Translations under genes and position numbers: made by a program
In this document: in pieces, positions 11,565 through 55,185 of the stretch
Position numbering within the stretch: position 1 is the stretch's first letter
How the letters are laid out: every line of letters begins with the position of its first letter
Source: an uncultured Pelagibacteraceae bacterium
GTDB lineage: Bacteria; Pseudomonadota; Alphaproteobacteria; Pelagibacterales; Pelagibacteraceae
Assembly: GCA_902543575.1 (NCBI GenBank)
Contig: CACBYV010000005.1
Coordinates: 29,013 to 93,012, forward strand
Length of the DNA: 64,000 nucleotides
Direction of reading: 5' to 3'
Notes under the pieces: model-generated
What the model was told of the DNA's origin: nothing
Database searches by the model: none
What the model saw: only the letters and a program-made list of their open reading frames with translations

Positions 11565-11578
11565 TTAAATTTTGAAAA

Positions 11579-11609
11579 AAGGCCTGACTATAAAATTTAG
11601 TCAGGCCTT
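11579..11609 (-). terminator. Hairpin (12-bp stem, 7-nt loop) with T-tract on the minus strand, between SBP gene and permease gene
   Basis: + strand AAGGCCTGACTA-TAAAATT-TAGTCAGGCCTT preceded by AAAA; minus strand reads hairpin then TTTTTT. Confidence 0.85.
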
Positions 11610-11620
11610 AAATATAGATT

Positions 11621-12544
11621 TTATCTATAACCTTGAGCTGCCCATTTAATTACTTTAGCAGCATTATCAGGAGTAACAAATCCAGGTCCAGTCATAACTA
11701 CACCAGCAGGCATTGTTCCCCATCTCATGTACTGAGCAAAAATAGCTATAGGCAAATAACCTTGTAGATATTGTTGTTGGTCAATTAAAAACTCTACTTT
11801 ACCTGCAGCAGCAGCTTTTAACATGTTAGGTGACATATCAAATGTTCCTAATTTAACATTTCCAACTTTACCAGCAGCTTCTAAAGCTTTTAGCGCTGCT
11901 TCACCAGATAAACCAGCTCCTAAAGTTAGAATAGTGTCATATCCACCACCTAATTTTGCAGCAACAGCTTTTTGAATTTCAGTTGGGTCATTTGATGTTC
12001 CAAGAATATCAACTGATCCACCAAAACCTTTTTTGAAACCTGCACATCTTCTATCAAGCGCTACGTTTCCAACTTCGTGGTTAACGCATAAAGCTTTTTT
12101 TCCTCCAGCAGCTTTCATTTTTTGTCCGCCACCAACACCAGCTTCAAATTCAGTTTGACCTACGTGTGCACTAATTCCTAATGATGCATAGTCATCCGAA
12201 CCAGAGTTCATAGAAACCACTGGTATACCAGCAGCTATTGCTGCTTTAACAGATTTTCCTAATGCAGCTGCATCAGGCAAAGTAATTACAATACCTTTTG
12301 GTTTTTGTGATACAGCGTTATCAATTAGTTTTGCCATTTCAACCATGTCAAAAGTTCCAGGCGCAGTGTATTTGCAAGATACTCCCATATCTTTACAAGC
12401 AGCATCAACTCCATTTTTAGCTACCGACCAAAAAGGGTCATTAGCTTGTCCATGTGAAACAACAATTATATCAGTTGCTAATGCTGATACAGACATCATT
12501 GCCCATGCAGCAACAGCTAATATAAAGTTCTTTATTGTTTTCAT
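11621..12544 (-). CDS. Sugar/inositol ABC transporter substrate-binding protein
   Basis: Signal peptide; VVSHGQANDPFWSVAKNGVDAA...NAVSQKPKGIVITLPD typical of the periplasmic binding protein family. Confidence 0.93.
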   Translation of the reverse strand: MKTIKNFILAVAAWAMMSVSALATDIIVVSHGQANDPFWSVAKNGVDAACKDMGVSCKYTAPGTFDMVEMAKLIDNAVSQKPKGIVITLPDAAALGKSVKAAIAAGIPVVSMNSGSDDYASLGISAHVGQTEFEAGVGGGQKMKAAGGKKALCVNHEVGNVALDRRCAGFKKGFGGSVDILGTSNDPTEIQKAVAAKLGGGYDTILTLGAGLSGEAALKALEAAGKVGNVKLGTFDMSPNMLKAAAAGKVEFLIDQQQYLQGYLPIAIFAQYMRWGTMPAGVVMTGPGFVTPDNAAKVIKWAAQGYR

Positions 12545-25415: not shown

Positions 25416-26348
25416 ATGAGAGAACTATCAAGAAAAATTGTTGTTTTAGTATCAGCAATTTTTTTATCGATAAGCATGATTTCAGCTTCTTTTGCTGATG
25501 GTCATGGTAAAAAAATCTTGTTCAGTATTAAAGGTCCTGGGTCTGGAAATCCTTTCTGGGCTTCTGTTACAAAAGGTGCTGAAGAAGAAGCTAAAAAATT
25601 AGGTGTTAAGTTAATCTTGGTTGCGCCACCTCAAGAAGGTGATGTTCAAGCACAAATTAACCAAGTGGAAGACCAACTTGCTAAAGGTGTTGATGCTTTA
25701 GCTCTTGCACCAGGAGATCCAAATGCATTCGCTCCAATTGTAGATGACGCTATCAAAAGTGGTGTTCCAGTTGTATTCGTAGATACAAAAGGGATCAATG
25801 AAGGTGTTACTTTTATTGGAACTAACAATATGAATGGAGCAGAATTAGCTGCTAAATTCATTTGTGACAAAACTCCAAAAGGTTCAGATGTTGCAATTTT
25901 GACTGGAATAGAGTCTCAATCAACAGCTTTACTAAGAAGAGACGGTGCAATTAAAGGATTTAAAAATTGCGGTTTAAATATAGTTGCTACTCAAACAGCT
26001 GAGTGGGATACTGCAAAAGGTAGATCAGTTACTGAGTCTATTATTTTGAAAAATCCTAACATCAAAGCAATATTTGCTTCAAATGACAATATGGGCTTAG
26101 GTGCTATGCAAGCTCTTAAAGATGCAGATATGAATGATGTTGTTGTTGTTGGTTTTGATGCAACTCCAGATGCTGCTACAAGTATCTTAAAAGGTGAAAT
26201 GACTGCAACTATTGCTCAGTTCTCATATAACATGGGTGCTTACGGTGTTAAATATGCACTTGAGCTAGCTAATGGTGGAAGTATTGATCCAAACATTGAT
26301 ACTGGAACACAACTAGTAACAAAAGAAAACGCTAACGATTTTAAATAA
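25416..26348 (+). CDS. Sugar ABC transporter substrate-binding protein
   Basis: Signal peptide; FSIKGPGSGNPFWASVTKGAEEEAKKLG, VVVGFDATPDAA. Confidence 0.93.
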   Translation: MRELSRKIVVLVSAIFLSISMISASFADGHGKKILFSIKGPGSGNPFWASVTKGAEEEAKKLGVKLILVAPPQEGDVQAQINQVEDQLAKGVDALALAPGDPNAFAPIVDDAIKSGVPVVFVDTKGINEGVTFIGTNNMNGAELAAKFICDKTPKGSDVAILTGIESQSTALLRRDGAIKGFKNCGLNIVATQTAEWDTAKGRSVTESIILKNPNIKAIFASNDNMGLGAMQALKDADMNDVVVVGFDATPDAATSILKGEMTATIAQFSYNMGAYGVKYALELANGGSIDPNIDTGTQLVTKENANDFK

Positions 26349-26367
26349 TCATTAGTCTATAACATTT

Positions 26368-26404
26368 AAAAAAGGGTGGAATTTTTATTCCACCCTTTTT
26401 TTTT
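26368..26404 (+). terminator. Rho-independent terminator after SBP gene
   Basis: GGGTGGAAT-TTTT-ATTCCACCC stem-loop flanked by A-tract and followed by T9. Confidence 0.94.
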
Positions 26405-26422
26405 ATGTAATATAATCTTTTA

Positions 26423-30041: not shown

Positions 30042-31016
30042 ATGAAAAAAAGCTTTAAACTATTTTTAGCTGCTGCTTTTTTAGTAACTGAATTTTTTGT
30101 TGTAGCACTTCCACTTATGATTACATCTGCAAAAGCAGATGGTCATCCAATACAAGCAATTACTCATGCTGGTTTTGGTGGTGGAACAGATGTTACTACG
30201 AGAATGATGTTGTTAAGAGCAAGAAGAGTTTTAAAACAAGACATGCAATTAGTTAATAAAAAAGGTGGTGGTGGAGCTGCATCTATGGACTACATGATGA
30301 CACTTCCTGCTGACGGTAATCACACTTTGACTTGGACTACTGGTCACGCTGTATCAATGGCTTTAGGTAAAACAAAAGTCAAAATAAGCGATATGCAACC
30401 GCTAGCTAGAGGAACTGATGATCCTCAACTATTTGTTGTTAATTGTAATAATGACATCAAAGATGCTAAGAAATTTATTAGCACTCAAAAATCAAAATCA
30501 CTAAAATATGGAACAACTCACACTGGTGGAATTGATGATGTTAGTGCAATTGCATTTACTAAAAAAGGTGGATTAAAAGATCCAACTATTGTTGCTTACA
30601 AAGGTGTTGCGCCAATTAAAACTAACCTAATCAAGGGAGATATTGATGTAGGAGTTTTAAATTTAGGTGAGGCCCTAACTGAAATTAATGAAGGCAAACT
30701 TTGTGTTTCAGTTGTATTAGCAAATAATAGAATGGCTAAAATAGGAGACTCTCCAACGGCAAAAGAATTAGGGATACCTGTTTCTTTATCTACTGTTAGA
30801 GGTTTCGTAACTAAAAAAGGTGCTCCAGCAGACAGAGTTAAACAACTAGAAGCTGGAATGATGAAAGCTATGAGCCACAACTACTATAAAAATTTCCTAA
30901 CAGAAATTGGTCTTGATGAATCTAGTGTTGTAGGCGCAGATGAATGGGGCAAGCAAATGGAAGAAATGCTTGCTGAAATGACAGCTCAACTCAAAGCATT
31001 GGGTTACATTAATTAA
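30042..31016 (+). CDS. Tripartite tricarboxylate transporter substrate-binding protein (TctC-like)
   Basis: Signal peptide; HAGFGGGTDVTTRMM...KKGGGGAASMDYM; followed by TctB- and TctA-like genes. Confidence 0.9.
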   Translation: MKKSFKLFLAAAFLVTEFFVVALPLMITSAKADGHPIQAITHAGFGGGTDVTTRMMLLRARRVLKQDMQLVNKKGGGGAASMDYMMTLPADGNHTLTWTTGHAVSMALGKTKVKISDMQPLARGTDDPQLFVVNCNNDIKDAKKFISTQKSKSLKYGTTHTGGIDDVSAIAFTKKGGLKDPTIVAYKGVAPIKTNLIKGDIDVGVLNLGEALTEINEGKLCVSVVLANNRMAKIGDSPTAKELGIPVSLSTVRGFVTKKGAPADRVKQLEAGMMKAMSHNYYKNFLTEIGLDESSVVGADEWGKQMEEMLAEMTAQLKALGYIN

Positions 31017-31034
31017 TAAATTTTGTACATTTAA

Positions 31035-31541
31035 ATGAATGATGTACATAACGAAAAAGGGACAAACAAAAGTTTGTCCCTTTTTTTTAAAAGTTCATTC
31101 ATTGTTTCAGCTTTAATAATATTAATTTCTTCAATTCTATTATACTTTACGTTTACTTTTGACATAGTGCCTCCTATATTAAATAGAGGTATACAGCCAG
31201 CAACGTTTCCAAAGGCCCTATTAATTTTAATTATTGCGCTAACTTTATTAACTTATTTTATTTCTCTTAAAAATCCCTGGAAAAATGAAAAAAAATTACC
31301 TAATTCATTTTACATCACTTTGCTTTCATTTGTTGTTTTTATAACTGTTTCAAAATTTTTAGATTTCTTTTTAGGCATAGCATTAATTTCAATCATAGTT
31401 TCTTACTTTTGGGGAGAAAGAAGAGTTGCCTATTTAATAATCGTATCAATTATATTTCCTTTAATTGTTTTTGTATTTTTTGAAACAATTTTAGGATTAC
31501 GATTTCCACCTGGAATTATTACAAACCTTTATTACGGATAA
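31035..31541 (+). CDS. Tripartite tricarboxylate transporter small membrane subunit (TctB-like)
   Basis: 4 hydrophobic segments, FPKALLILI; between TctC- and TctA-like genes. Confidence 0.85.
   Translation: MNDVHNEKGTNKSLSLFFKSSFIVSALIILISSILLYFTFTFDIVPPILNRGIQPATFPKALLILIIALTLLTYFISLKNPWKNEKKLPNSFYITLLSFVVFITVSKFLDFFLGIALISIIVSYFWGERRVAYLIIVSIIFPLIVFVFFETILGLRFPPGIITNLYYG
31054..31088 (+). terminator. Intrinsic-terminator-like hairpin inside the start of the tctB ORF
   Basis: AAAAAGGGACAAAC-AAAA-GTTTGTCCCTTTTTTTT: perfect 9-bp GC-containing stem extended by A-T pairs, 4-nt loop, T8. Confidence 0.88.
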
Positions 31542-31542
31542 A

Positions 31543-33021
31543 ATGGAAAATTTAGGTTTAATCTTTGCTCCTTTATTTAGTTATAAATTATTAATTGTTT
31601 TATTTTTTGGAACAATTTTTGGATTAATTCTTGGAGTTCTTCCTGGACTAGGGCCAACAACAGGCGGTGCTTTAATATTACCTTTTACGATGACGCTAGA
31701 TCCACTATCTGCAATTGTTTTACTAACTGCAATTTATTGTGCAGGAACTTATGGAGGTGCAATTACTGCAATTTTAATAAATACCCCTGGAACCCCTGCA
31801 GCAGCAGCCACATGTTTAGATGGTTACCCTTTAGCACAAAAAGGAGAAGCTGGAAGAGCTTTAGGTATGGCTACTGTTTCAAGCGTAATTGGTGGAATTG
31901 CTAGTGTTATAGTTCTTATATTTTTTGCTCCTTTACTAGCAAATTTAGCTTACGAATTCGGTCAACCTGAATATTTTGCGCTAGCAATTTTTGGATTAAC
32001 TATGCTTGCATCAATTGGTGAAGGCAGTCCTATTAAAAATTTAATTGCTGGTGCTTTTGGAATTCTAATTTCAACTGTTGGTAAAGATTTTATGACATCT
32101 ATAGATAGGTTTACATTTGGAATTAATGAATTGACTGAAGGTATTGGTTTTATTCCAGTAGTAGTAGGTTTGTTTGCTATTAGTGAAATGTTAACTCAAT
32201 CTACTTTAATAAATCAAATATTTAATAGAGTAGCTTTAAAAGCAGTTAAACTTCCATCAATCGATGATTATAAAAAAACTTGGAAAACAATAATTAGATC
32301 AAGCGGCATAGGATCATTTATTGGTGTTTTGCCAGCAGAGGGAGGAACTGTTGCATCTTTAATAGGATATGCTGAAGCAAAAAGATGGTCAAAAAAACCT
32401 GAGGATTTTGGGAAAGGATCAATTGAAGGAATAGCTGGAGCTGAAGCAGCAAATAATGCTGCTACTGGAGGAGCTATGGTTCCAACGCTAGCTTTAGGCA
32501 TTCCTGGTAGTGCGACTACAGCAGTAATACTTACAGGATTAATCATACATGGTGTAAGACCTGGTCCAGATTTATTTAGAGAGCAACCTGAGTTTCTTTA
32601 TGGAATATTTGGATCAATGCTCATTGCAAATATTTTATTCTTCGTATTAGGATTTTTTGGAGCTAAAATATTTGCAAGAATAACTCTAGTTCCAAATAAA
32701 TTATTATGGCCAATGATTTTTGCAGTTTCTGTTTGTGGAACATATTCTTTAAACCAGTCAATTATTGATGTTTGGTTGATGCTTTTATTTGGAGTTATTG
32801 GTTTTTTTATGAGAAGATATGGATTTTCAGTTGTACCTGTAATTATAGGTTTAATTTTAGGTGAATTAGTAGAGGGAACTTTAAGACAATCGCTTGTTAT
32901 TTTCGATGGAAACTGGTTAATGTTCCTTCAAAGACCTATAGCTTTAACATTTTTTGTTTTATCTTTAATTGCTTTAAGTTTTCCATTAATAAAGAGAAAG
33001 AAAAAAAATGATAAAGTTTGA
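31543..33021 (+). CDS. Tripartite tricarboxylate transporter large permease (TctA-like)
   Basis: GTIFGLILGVLPGLGPTTGGALILPFT, YGGAITAILINTPGTPAAAATCLDGYPLAQKGEAGRAL. Confidence 0.96.
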   Translation: MENLGLIFAPLFSYKLLIVLFFGTIFGLILGVLPGLGPTTGGALILPFTMTLDPLSAIVLLTAIYCAGTYGGAITAILINTPGTPAAAATCLDGYPLAQKGEAGRALGMATVSSVIGGIASVIVLIFFAPLLANLAYEFGQPEYFALAIFGLTMLASIGEGSPIKNLIAGAFGILISTVGKDFMTSIDRFTFGINELTEGIGFIPVVVGLFAISEMLTQSTLINQIFNRVALKAVKLPSIDDYKKTWKTIIRSSGIGSFIGVLPAEGGTVASLIGYAEAKRWSKKPEDFGKGSIEGIAGAEAANNAATGGAMVPTLALGIPGSATTAVILTGLIIHGVRPGPDLFREQPEFLYGIFGSMLIANILFFVLGFFGAKIFARITLVPNKLLWPMIFAVSVCGTYSLNQSIIDVWLMLLFGVIGFFMRRYGFSVVPVIIGLILGELVEGTLRQSLVIFDGNWLMFLQRPIALTFFVLSLIALSFPLIKRKKKNDKV

Positions 33022-44223: not shown

Positions 44224-45786
44224 ATGAAGTATGGGTATTTTATAAAAATTTTATTGGCTTTTTTTCTAGCTTTTGCTCCAACACAAGCATTTGCAAAAAC
44301 TATTAAATGGTCAATGCAGGGTGATAGTTTAACACTTGATCCTCATGCTCAAAACGAAGGTCCTACCACTCAAGTATCTAGACAAGTATACGAAGCTCTA
44401 GTTACTAGAGGATTAGATATGAAAATTGGACCTCAACTAGCAACAGAGTGGAGAACTCAAGGTCCTAATACTTGGATCTTTAAATTAAGAGAAGATGTTA
44501 AATTTTCAGATGGCACTCCATTTACATCCGAAGATGTTGTATTTAGTATTTTAAGAGCAAAACAAAGAACATCTGATTTTAAAGAATATATAAGTACAGT
44601 ATCAGGTGTAAAAGCAGTTAATGACTACACAGTAGAAATAACAACAAGTAAACCAAATCCAATTCTTTTAAACCAACTTTCAAACATTTTTATAATGTCA
44701 AAAAAATGGAGTGAAAAGAATTTTGCAGTTATGGCACAGAACTGGGATGCTGGACAAGAAACATTTTCAGCCACAAATGCTATGGGAACTGGACCATTTA
44801 AAATTACATTAAGAGAACCAAATACTAAAACAGTTTTCAAACGTAATAAAAAATGGTGGGGAACAATGAAAGATGATAAAGTAACTGAAATTCATCTACT
44901 ACCTATAAAAAATGCAGCTACTAGAGTTGCAGCTCTTTTATCTGGTGAAATTGATGTTGTTACTGATGCACCTGTGCAGGATTTGGCAAGAATTAAAAAT
45001 TCACCAGCTCACAAAGTGGAAAGCACTGCTCAAATGAGAACTATATTCCTAGGAATGGATCAGGGAGCAGATAAACTTAGAACAGGTAATACAGGTGATA
45101 ACCCATTTAAAAAGAAAGCAGTAAGACAAGCACTCTATCAAGCAATAGATATTGAGGCTATTAAGAAAAAAGTAATGAGAGGTTTAAGTGAACCTGCTGG
45201 AATTATTACTTTTCCAGGTGTTAATGGATATACAGAGGAACTTGATAAGAGACTTCCTTATGATGTAGCTGCTGCAAAAAAACTTTTAGCTGATGCTGGA
45301 TATCCAAATGGATTTGAAGTTGAGCTTAGATGTCCAAATGACAGGTATGTAAATGATGAAGCTATATGTACAGCTGTTGTTGGTATGTTAGGTAAAATCG
45401 GTGTTAAAGTAAATTTATTTGCTCAAACAAAAAGTAAGCACTTTAAAGAACTAAAAGACAATCAAGGTGACTTTTATATGTTAGGTTGGGGAGTTCCAAC
45501 TTTAGATAGTCATTATGTTTTCCATTACTTATATGAAAGTGGAGCAAGCTGGAACAGAGTTAACTTTAGTAACTCTGATGTAGATGCCGCGATAAGAGTT
45601 ATGGAAGGTGAAGTTAACCTAGATAAGAGAAATGCTGCGATAGCTAAAGCTTGGAAAATAGTAAAAGATGATATTTCTTATCTTCCTTTACATCACCAAG
45701 TTATATCTTGGGCTGCAAAAAAAGATGTTAATGTTCCGATAAGACCGAATAACGAACCGTTATTCCGTTTTGCGAGCTTTGACTAA
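44224..45786 (+). CDS. Peptide/oligopeptide ABC transporter substrate-binding protein
   Basis: Signal peptide; WSMQGDSLTLDPHAQNEG, EWRTQGPNTWIFKLREDVKFSDGTPFTSEDVVFS. Confidence 0.94.
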   Translation: MKYGYFIKILLAFFLAFAPTQAFAKTIKWSMQGDSLTLDPHAQNEGPTTQVSRQVYEALVTRGLDMKIGPQLATEWRTQGPNTWIFKLREDVKFSDGTPFTSEDVVFSILRAKQRTSDFKEYISTVSGVKAVNDYTVEITTSKPNPILLNQLSNIFIMSKKWSEKNFAVMAQNWDAGQETFSATNAMGTGPFKITLREPNTKTVFKRNKKWWGTMKDDKVTEIHLLPIKNAATRVAALLSGEIDVVTDAPVQDLARIKNSPAHKVESTAQMRTIFLGMDQGADKLRTGNTGDNPFKKKAVRQALYQAIDIEAIKKKVMRGLSEPAGIITFPGVNGYTEELDKRLPYDVAAAKKLLADAGYPNGFEVELRCPNDRYVNDEAICTAVVGMLGKIGVKVNLFAQTKSKHFKELKDNQGDFYMLGWGVPTLDSHYVFHYLYESGASWNRVNFSNSDVDAAIRVMEGEVNLDKRNAAIAKAWKIVKDDISYLPLHHQVISWAAKKDVNVPIRPNNEPLFRFASFD

Positions 45787-45795
45787 ATAATTTAT

Positions 45796-45825
45796 TACAA
45801 GCCCTTTTTAATTAAAGGGCTTGTA
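45796..45825 (+). other. Strong mRNA hairpin without clear T-tract, between SBP and permease genes
   Basis: TACAAGCCCTTT-TTAATT-AAAGGGCTTGTA: perfect 12-bp stem, 6-nt loop. Confidence 0.85.
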
Positions 45826-45845
45826 TAAAAATAAAATTTCATAAA

Positions 45846-53683: not shown

Positions 53684-54156
53684 TTAATTATATCTTTGAT
53701 GTATTTAGGTACTTCGAAAAGCACTCTTAATACCAAAAATGCAAAACATAATGGTATCGCAAATTCTGTAAGAAAGGATGGAACATCTAAAATTGTAGAG
53801 CTTGTTCTTCCAACTTTAAGAGAGTCGTAAGCAATTAACCATCCATAATAAAGTACAAATCCACTAAAAATTAAAATGAATATTGCACTTATTAAATCTA
53901 ATATCTTTTTTCCTTTATCTCCTACTTTGTCATATATAACTGTTATTCTGATAAAATCATTTTTATGAAAAGTATAAGTTAAAGCTAAATAAGTAGCCCA
54001 AATTTGTAAAAATCGAGAAATTTCGTTTACCCAAATAGTAGGTGAATTAAATATGTATCTCATGATAACTTCATAAGAAACTATAAAGCCTATCATAATA
54101 AATAACGCTGAAGCTAAATAGCCAGAATATTTTACAATTTTGTCGTAGGTATTCAT
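53680..54156 (-). CDS. dctQ: TRAP transporter small permease (DctQ-like)
   Basis: IVSYEVIMRYIFNSPTIWVNEISRFLQIWATYLA. ATG at 54156 preferred; the GTG start in the track (54171) is inside a palindrome. Confidence 0.92.
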   Translation of the reverse strand: MNTYDKIVKYSGYLASALFIMIGFIVSYEVIMRYIFNSPTIWVNEISRFLQIWATYLALTYTFHKNDFIRITVIYDKVGDKGKKILDLISAIFILIFSGFVLYYGWLIAYDSLKVGRTSSTILDVPSFLTEFAIPLCFAFLVLRVLFEVPKYIKDIIK

Positions 54157-54162
54157 TTGAAA

Positions 54163-54184
54163 ACCCCGCACTTAAGTGCGGGGT
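54163..54184 (-). other. 22-bp perfect palindrome/hairpin between dctP and dctQ
   Basis: ACCCCGCACTT|AAGTGCGGGGT; on the minus strand followed by TTTTC then the dctQ ATG. Confidence 0.92.
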
Positions 54185-54195
54185 ATTTATACGAT

Positions 54196-55185
54196 TTAAA
54201 GTTTGTTTGCAGCTTTTACAAGTTGATCACCAACTCCACCAGCTCCACCTGTTCTAGAAATGTAATCATCAATAACAGATGACGATGCCTTTTTAAGAGC
54301 AGAAACTTCAGAACTACTTAGGTTTACAATGTTCATTCCATTTGCTTTTGCTTCTTTGTAAGCCCCAGCTTCAATGTTAGCCATGTCATCTCTAACAGCT
54401 TTTTCAGCTACTTTTGATGCTTCAGCTATAGCGTCTCTTTGTTTTTGAGTTAATGAGCTTAGCCATTTATCATTAGCAACAACAACGAATTCGATATCGC
54501 CATGATTTGTAACAGTTAAAGTATCCATTACTTGATATAATTTTCTAGATTTTACACCAGATACACCAGTCATACCTGCATCAACTGTATTTCTTTGGTA
54601 AGCTAAATATTGCTCAGATCCAGATATTAATGCTGGTTTACCACCTAAAGAGCTCACAAAAGCTCCAAGTGTTTTTCCAAATACTCTAATTTTTTTATCT
54701 TTAAAGTCAGCTGGAGTTTTCATCGGACCACCATTGGATAACATAATTGCTGACCCATAAGCTTGATAATAAAGTGGAACTGCTCCTGTCTTAGCTATTG
54801 CAGGATCAAGAATAGCTCTTATCTCGGATCCAGCTTGAGTTGCTTTTCTTACTTTTTGTTCTGAGTCAAATAAGAATGGAAGATAGAAAACATCAACTTC
54901 AGGATTAGTTCCTGCAAATCTTGTTATAGATGCAACACCAGCTTCGATTGCTCCTGAACCAACAGCTTGTGGAACTTCTTTATCTTTGTAAAGTTGCGCA
55001 GAGTCGTAAATCTCAACTTTAATGTCTGATCTTGATTCTAATTCTTTTTTAAATACCAAAAGGTTCTGACCTAAGTGAGCCTTTAATGGTAATTGAAGTG
55101 TAATTCTCATTTTTGTTTCTGCCAAACTCGCACTGGCAAAAGAAACGAAAATCAGAGAAAATATTATTCTTTTAAAGATTTTCAT
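54196..55185 (-). CDS. dctP: TRAP transporter substrate-binding protein (DctP-like)
   Basis: Signal peptide; AVGSGAIEAGVASITRFAGTNPEVDVFYLPFLF; KKIRVFGKTLGAFVSSLGGKPALIS. Confidence 0.94.
   Translation of the reverse strand: MKIFKRIIFSLIFVSFASASLAETKMRITLQLPLKAHLGQNLLVFKKELESRSDIKVEIYDSAQLYKDKEVPQAVGSGAIEAGVASITRFAGTNPEVDVFYLPFLFDSEQKVRKATQAGSEIRAILDPAIAKTGAVPLYYQAYGSAIMLSNGGPMKTPADFKDKKIRVFGKTLGAFVSSLGGKPALISGSEQYLAYQRNTVDAGMTGVSGVKSRKLYQVMDTLTVTNHGDIEFVVVANDKWLSSLTQKQRDAIAEASKVAEKAVRDDMANIEAGAYKEAKANGMNIVNLSSSEVSALKKASSSVIDDYISRTGGAGGVGDQLVKAANKL

Follow-up and report, generated by a model that had tools for sequence, protein, structure and literature searches.

A terminator-like hairpin fused with the tctB translation start in a tripartite tricarboxylate transporter operon of the SAR11 clade

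Why should a gene in the middle of an operon carry, within its first codons, what looks like a transcription terminator? The question is raised by tctB of a tripartite tricarboxylate transporter (TTT) operon in a 64,000-nucleotide stretch of DNA (the window) from a SAR11 (Pelagibacteraceae) genome of 1.19 Mb; the closest tctB orthologs are Pelagibacteraceae records throughout. Pfam assignments give the operon order tctC-tctB-tctA on the forward strand, with a PdxA-family gene divergent from it. The solute-binding protein (SBP) gene tctC (30042-31016; PF03401 TctC, E 6e-19) ends with a TAA stop codon at 31014-31016 and is followed by tctB (31035-31541; PF07331 TctB, residues 23-158), encoding the small membrane subunit, and, 3' of the element discussed here, by tctA (31543-33021; PF01970 TctA, E 6e-160), encoding the large membrane subunit. 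An earlier note on this DNA had pointed to two hairpins at the tctB start and had regarded them as an attenuator-like arrangement of no recognised class, in which a ribosome initiating at tctB could disrupt the terminator.

Both hairpins are present at the positions given in that note, and they overlap codons 1-18 of tctB. The first (P0; 31024-31048, forward strand) is based on a 7-bp inverted repeat, TGTACAT (31024-31030) and ATGTACA (31042-31048), with arms of 31024-31031 and 31041-31048; as in start-codon-sequestering hairpins, the tctB AUG (31035) lies within the loop of this conserved hairpin. The repeat occurs once in the window, for an expectation of 0 from shuffles. The second hairpin (31053-31086, forward strand) has the build of an intrinsic terminator: a 9-bp G+C-containing core (GGGACAAAC at 31059-31067 and GTTTGTCCC at 31072-31080), a 4-nt loop (AAAA, 31068-31071) and, directly 3', a T8 tract (31081-31088), which codes for the Leu-Phe-Phe region and is where tctC-only transcripts are predicted to end. 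Its stem begins at codon 7, the G+C core occupying codons 9-16, and can be extended to 15 bp by pairing of the A-run into the T-run (31053-31067 / 31072-31086). Owing to this overlap of stem and T tract, a simple terminator scan of the window made no call at this site. For the 79-nt region 31014-31092, folding predicts these two hairpins and nothing else, at -27.4 kcal/mol, compared with -8.4 ± 2.3 kcal/mol for dinucleotide shuffles (z = -8.3; 0 of 200 as good).

For a comparison across the clade, 105 loci carrying this tctB were gathered from SAR11 genomes; codon usage was compared in 47 distinct sequences, and 32 distinct regions were used for the pairing statistics. P0 and the terminator are present in all intact orthologs examined, and RNAalifold recovered the same two-hairpin structure from the ortholog regions unprompted. 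Across the 32 regions, 96.4% of cells are paired, versus 41-63% for slid versions, with double-sided changes at 8 pairs, a number that 0 of 500 shuffles reached. The terminator alone has 99.3% of cells paired and double-sided changes at 5 pairs; P0 alone (91.8%) also covaries, though less than the terminator, an example being the GTACAC/GTGTAC version in one ortholog (L022). The T tract is retained at a length of ~8-9, with interruptions confined to a few distinct sequences. Judged from these alignments, the RNA structure over the tctB start is under selection. A tctB copy broken by stops (G216:C10:15314-15815, L123; one TGA and four TAA over two overlapping matches) still has the hairpin and T tract at its start. 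A tctB region is also found at both ends of contig CACEIC010000009.1, in opposite orientations (L032, L037), and likewise of G038:C10; these duplicates are probably artefacts of single-cell assembly.

Could the N-terminal peptide of TctB account for this conservation, the hairpin being a by-product or due to chance? The peptide (K-R/G-A/T-N-K-S-L-P/S-F/L-F-F) is fairly conserved itself, but the way in which it is encoded makes this reading extremely improbable. In the 47 distinct sequences, codons 9-15 are almost invariably rare synonyms (AGG or GGG, AAC, TTG, CCC, TCC) with a genome usage of 5-20%: AGG/GGG occurs in 47 of 47, AAC at 38 of 40 Asn residues, CCC at every Pro, and TTG for Leu. 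At residues conserved between two clades, codon identity is 98% for codons 8-18 and 89% for codons 2-7, compared with 37% for codons 19-30, 56% for codons 31-168 and at most 76% for the other 11-codon windows sampled. Furthermore, some of the compensatory changes alter residues, and more distant tctB genes (46-59% identity; L106-L108, L122) encode different N-terminal residues while hairpin and T tract lie in the same place. This comparison of N-termini, suggested in the earlier note, thus points to pairing as the feature that is kept, and the constraint on the 5' end of tctB is, as far as codon usage reveals it, one that acts on nucleotides, beyond the protein.

The same alignments bear on where tctB begins. 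As had been noted, there is no in-frame ATG, GTG or TTG between 31035 and the first transmembrane segment, and the Pfam TctB domain begins at residue 23. The ATG is invariant in the 47 distinct sequences, and the frame is retained in all intact orthologs. The gap between the tctC stop codon and this ATG varies from 18 to 25 nt in single-nucleotide steps, whereas the coding part and the loops vary only by 3 nt. Taken together, this provides strong indirect evidence for 31035 as the start of tctB and for an open frame through the hairpin, translated in read-through transcripts, as the earlier note had supposed. A non-canonical start further downstream is not favoured, given the universal ATG and the coding-length changes of 3 nt only.

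The position of the hairpin directly after an SBP gene is shared with other operons. We examined 60 close same-strand gene junctions in the window for a hairpin of -16 kcal/mol or lower within 90 nt of the stop codon. Five passed, and their upstream genes are exactly the five SBP genes recognised by a signal-like N-terminus and Pfam (Peripla_BP_4 twice, SBP_bac_5, DctP and TctC), compared with 0 of the 55 other junctions. Besides the tctC-tctB hairpin, they are located after the Peripla_BP_4 gene at 25416-26348 (26349-26410, forward strand; -20.5 kcal/mol, T8), the SBP_bac_5 gene at 44224-45786 (45787-45835, forward; -18.7 kcal/mol), the Peripla_BP_4 gene at 11621-12544 on the reverse strand (11570-11620, reverse; -19.5 kcal/mol) and the DctP gene at 54196-55185 on the reverse strand, just before dctQ (54150-54195, reverse; -19.6 kcal/mol). 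As a background, junctions were taken from the window and from two other genomes, the latter sampled as 20 stretches; 11 of these 330 junctions (3.3%) passed, the five SBP junctions of the window among them. The tctC-tctB hairpin, between SBP and permease genes, thus belongs to an association above background. With a slightly longer search span of 130 nt, 21 of 22 DctP genes, which encode TRAP SBPs, are followed by such a hairpin in six SAR11 genomes. For ABC-type SBP candidates the count is 22 of 30, the eight misses being four genes without a permease downstream (L204-L207) and four with weak, doubtful family matches. Kinship between the SBP genes of different genomes makes the counts non-independent, yet several binding-protein families, unrelated to one another, are included. 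In the SAR11 clade, as far as these genomes represent it, an SBP gene is therefore as a rule followed by a hairpin, in most cases one with a T tract. The description of the element as attenuator-like and of no recognised class holds in part: its fusion with the start of the next gene looks unusual, but the hairpin is not an isolated case.

On these grounds we consider it probable that the element is an intraoperonic terminator, or 3' stabilising hairpin, of the tctC message that has merged with the translation initiation region of tctB. RNA polymerase leaving tctC would mostly halt at 31081-31088, yielding a stable tctC-only mRNA, and the minority of polymerases reading through would transcribe tctBA, so that output of TctC would exceed that of the membrane subunits. 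In Escherichia coli, the repression of a terminator by a ribosome at a stop codon extends over ~30 nt (PMC4824070); the distance from the tctC stop codon to the GGG of the terminator stem is 42-50 nt in the orthologs, which exceeds this limit and supports a terminator that functions despite the ribosome terminating on tctC. A terminator placed within 100 bp of the start of an open reading frame does work in E. coli (PMC4824070).

Several SAR11 hairpins after SBP genes have no T tract (L113, L118, L159, L162, L163, L165 and L200-L203, in TTT, TRAP and ABC operons), and termination alone can therefore not explain all of them. Their common role may, to judge from sequence, be stabilisation or processing instead, which counts against the reading we prefer. 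In the form in which the tctB hairpin would be a barrier to 3' exonucleases or an RNase processing site, stabilising the tctC mRNA that is cleaved from a full-length tctCBA transcript, with little termination, this alternative gains from the strong hairpins without T tract at paralogous TTT and several TRAP junctions. It is nevertheless quite unlikely, since in the tctB family a T tract of ~8-9 has been retained even though it constrains the protein sequence.

The position of the AUG 5' of the terminator in all intact orthologs raises a different option, i.e., the translation-dependent attenuator implied by the earlier note. A ribosome initiating at tctB would unfold the terminator and allow read-through, failure of initiation would end the transcript after tctC, and P0 would set the rate. 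The conserved P0 surrounding the AUG, the reading frame kept through the hairpin and a stop-to-start distance (18-25 nt) compatible with coupled re-initiation all fit such a mechanism. In E. coli, however, an AUG 30 bp upstream reduced terminator efficiency by only ~10%, because over the first ~100 bp RNA polymerase stays out of reach of a new ribosome (PMC4824070), and here the A of the tctB AUG is a similar 24-25 nt from the G+C stem. Neither folding nor inspection of the region revealed an alternative or antiterminator pairing; there is one dominant fold, in which P0 and the terminator are compatible. In the TRAP operons of the same genomes the hairpin precedes the dctQ start codon, whereas in the TTT operon of the window it follows that of tctB, and read-through in the former would thus take place without translation of the hairpin. 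Disruption of the terminator by the initiating ribosome is, as stated, unsupported, and a switch on failed initiation, although possible, is not needed to explain the data when hairpins after SBP genes are the rule in the clade. Moreover, initiation on non-stop RNA ahead of a terminator halved expression of the upstream gene in E. coli (PMC4824070). By analogy with these two effects, ribosome-dependent antitermination ranks second: it is possible, but unlikely as the main function.

The halved expression also suggests what P0 may contribute to an intraoperonic terminator. With the AUG in its loop, 8-12 nt past the tctC stop codon, P0 would keep initiation at tctB low or tied to a ribosome finishing tctC, leaving fewer ribosomes on tctC-only RNA, which lacks a tctB stop codon. 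Ribosomes on such RNA would otherwise stall and flag the mRNA for tmRNA-linked decay, and the limit set by P0 would protect the tctC message. SAR11 possesses tmRNA (PMC2704228). The role of P0 as an initiation limiter is inferred only, and in the folding model P0 would act equally on terminated and read-through RNA, which counts against it.

That GTACAT/ATGTAC is conserved in the tctB clade beyond what pairing requires could instead indicate a ligand-, protein- or sRNA-responsive switch, with a factor binding the GTACAU/AUGUAC hairpin. We regard this as highly doubtful: a more distant ortholog (L122) appears to substitute CGTGC/GCACG, which also folds as P0, the motif is essentially confined to tctB, with no regulon, and the 24 Rfam matches, none reaching the gathering score, provide no link to a known riboswitch or cis-regulatory RNA. 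The arm spacing of 15-19 nt disfavours a rigid dimeric DNA operator, and an operator for a dimeric regulator was rejected as the main idea in view of this variable half-site spacing and the lack of a regulon.

Other TTT families add variants of the arrangement. An independent case comes from a second TTT operon in the genome of the window (L253; G000 contig 6, 69500-72500) and 29 related loci within L254-L283. There, a conserved hairpin (GAGCAGTGA...TCACTGCTC) includes the GTG start of tctB in its 5' arm, with 98.9% of cells paired versus 32-63% when slid; T6-T7 follows in one genome set and a C-interrupted T tract in another. Here the hairpin containing the GTG would itself take the initiation-limiting role of P0. 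One genus has a consensus-like Shine-Dalgarno sequence (AAAGGAGGAGCAGTG) that extends into this GTG-containing stem. In a third family (L113-L121), codons ~8-20 of tctB form strong hairpins that mostly lack a T tract, which suggests a stabilising or translational role instead of termination, and in a fourth family the hairpin is intergenic. From the GTG-in-stem arrangement and the in-frame hairpins of the third family, the overlap of hairpin and tctB start probably arose more than once. A covariance-model search for further members returned tctB alone at 82 bits or more and everything else at 50 bits or less, the inspected matches in the latter range being mostly ordinary terminators. Compared with shuffles, most tctB starts of other alphaproteobacteria lack such a hairpin and a few hold one (L155, L131). 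These two, from non-SAR11 genomes with a GC content of 0.61-0.64, have strong inverted repeats in the N-terminal codons of tctB (ACCGGGCTGC-ACCA-GCAGCCCGGTTT in L155) and are possibly independent cases in GC-rich genomes. A bolder version of our preferred reading is a dual-code element with separate origins in several TTT families of SAR11; in it the SBP terminator would also gate the tctB start, and termination and initiation would be coupled. We consider this doubtful, though worth tentative consideration; if true, transporter stoichiometry could follow ribosome availability.

How does the element compare with known systems? Intraoperonic partial terminators or stem-loops after binding-protein genes are represented by the malE-malF REP region and the TRAP dctP-dctQ stem-loop. 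The tctC-tctB hairpin likewise directly follows an SBP gene within an operon, with more SBP than permease expected; unlike these, which are usually intergenic, it is located inside the next open reading frame and is accompanied by a second hairpin at the start codon. It resembles the early-ORF terminators of PMC4824070, where an intrinsic terminator ~30 bp past an AUG is functional despite translation, but that is a synthetic E. coli construct, while the tctB terminator is natural, deeply conserved and codon-constrained. With leader-peptide attenuators of the pyrBI and trp type (PMC4824070) it shares a terminator that overlaps or adjoins a short translated region, but it lies mid-operon in a structural gene, has no leader peptide of its own and no regulatory codon run, and mutually exclusive terminator and antiterminator structures were found neither by folding nor by inspection of the region. 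As in hairpins that sequester a start codon or Shine-Dalgarno sequence in translational coupling, the tctB start is in a hairpin close behind an upstream stop codon; P0 differs in being combined with a terminator, and in the second TTT operon one hairpin serves both purposes. Stem-loops after SBP genes and early-ORF terminators are thus known kinds, while the fusion of a terminator to the beginning of the following gene does look unusual. Our literature search found no description of a SAR11 case or of a dctP-dctQ stem-loop, which is weak evidence of absence as subscription journals fell mostly outside the search. A 2009 survey of structured RNAs in Pelagibacter was limited to long intergenic regions (PMC2704228) and would have missed elements overlapping coding sequence.

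In tctB, the same nucleotides are conserved for the RNA structure that they form and for the protein that they encode, the purpose probably being to keep TctC far above the membrane pump. A further prediction is that ribosomes stall on RNA without a stop codon at the tctB terminator, a naturally occurring and conserved site. SAR11 bacteria have few regulators and abundant solute-binding proteins. If our reading is right, the ratio of SBP to permease in many of their transport operons would be fixed by hard-wired hairpins recognisable in the sequence, and TTT operons would have moved this control into the coding region with its function retained.
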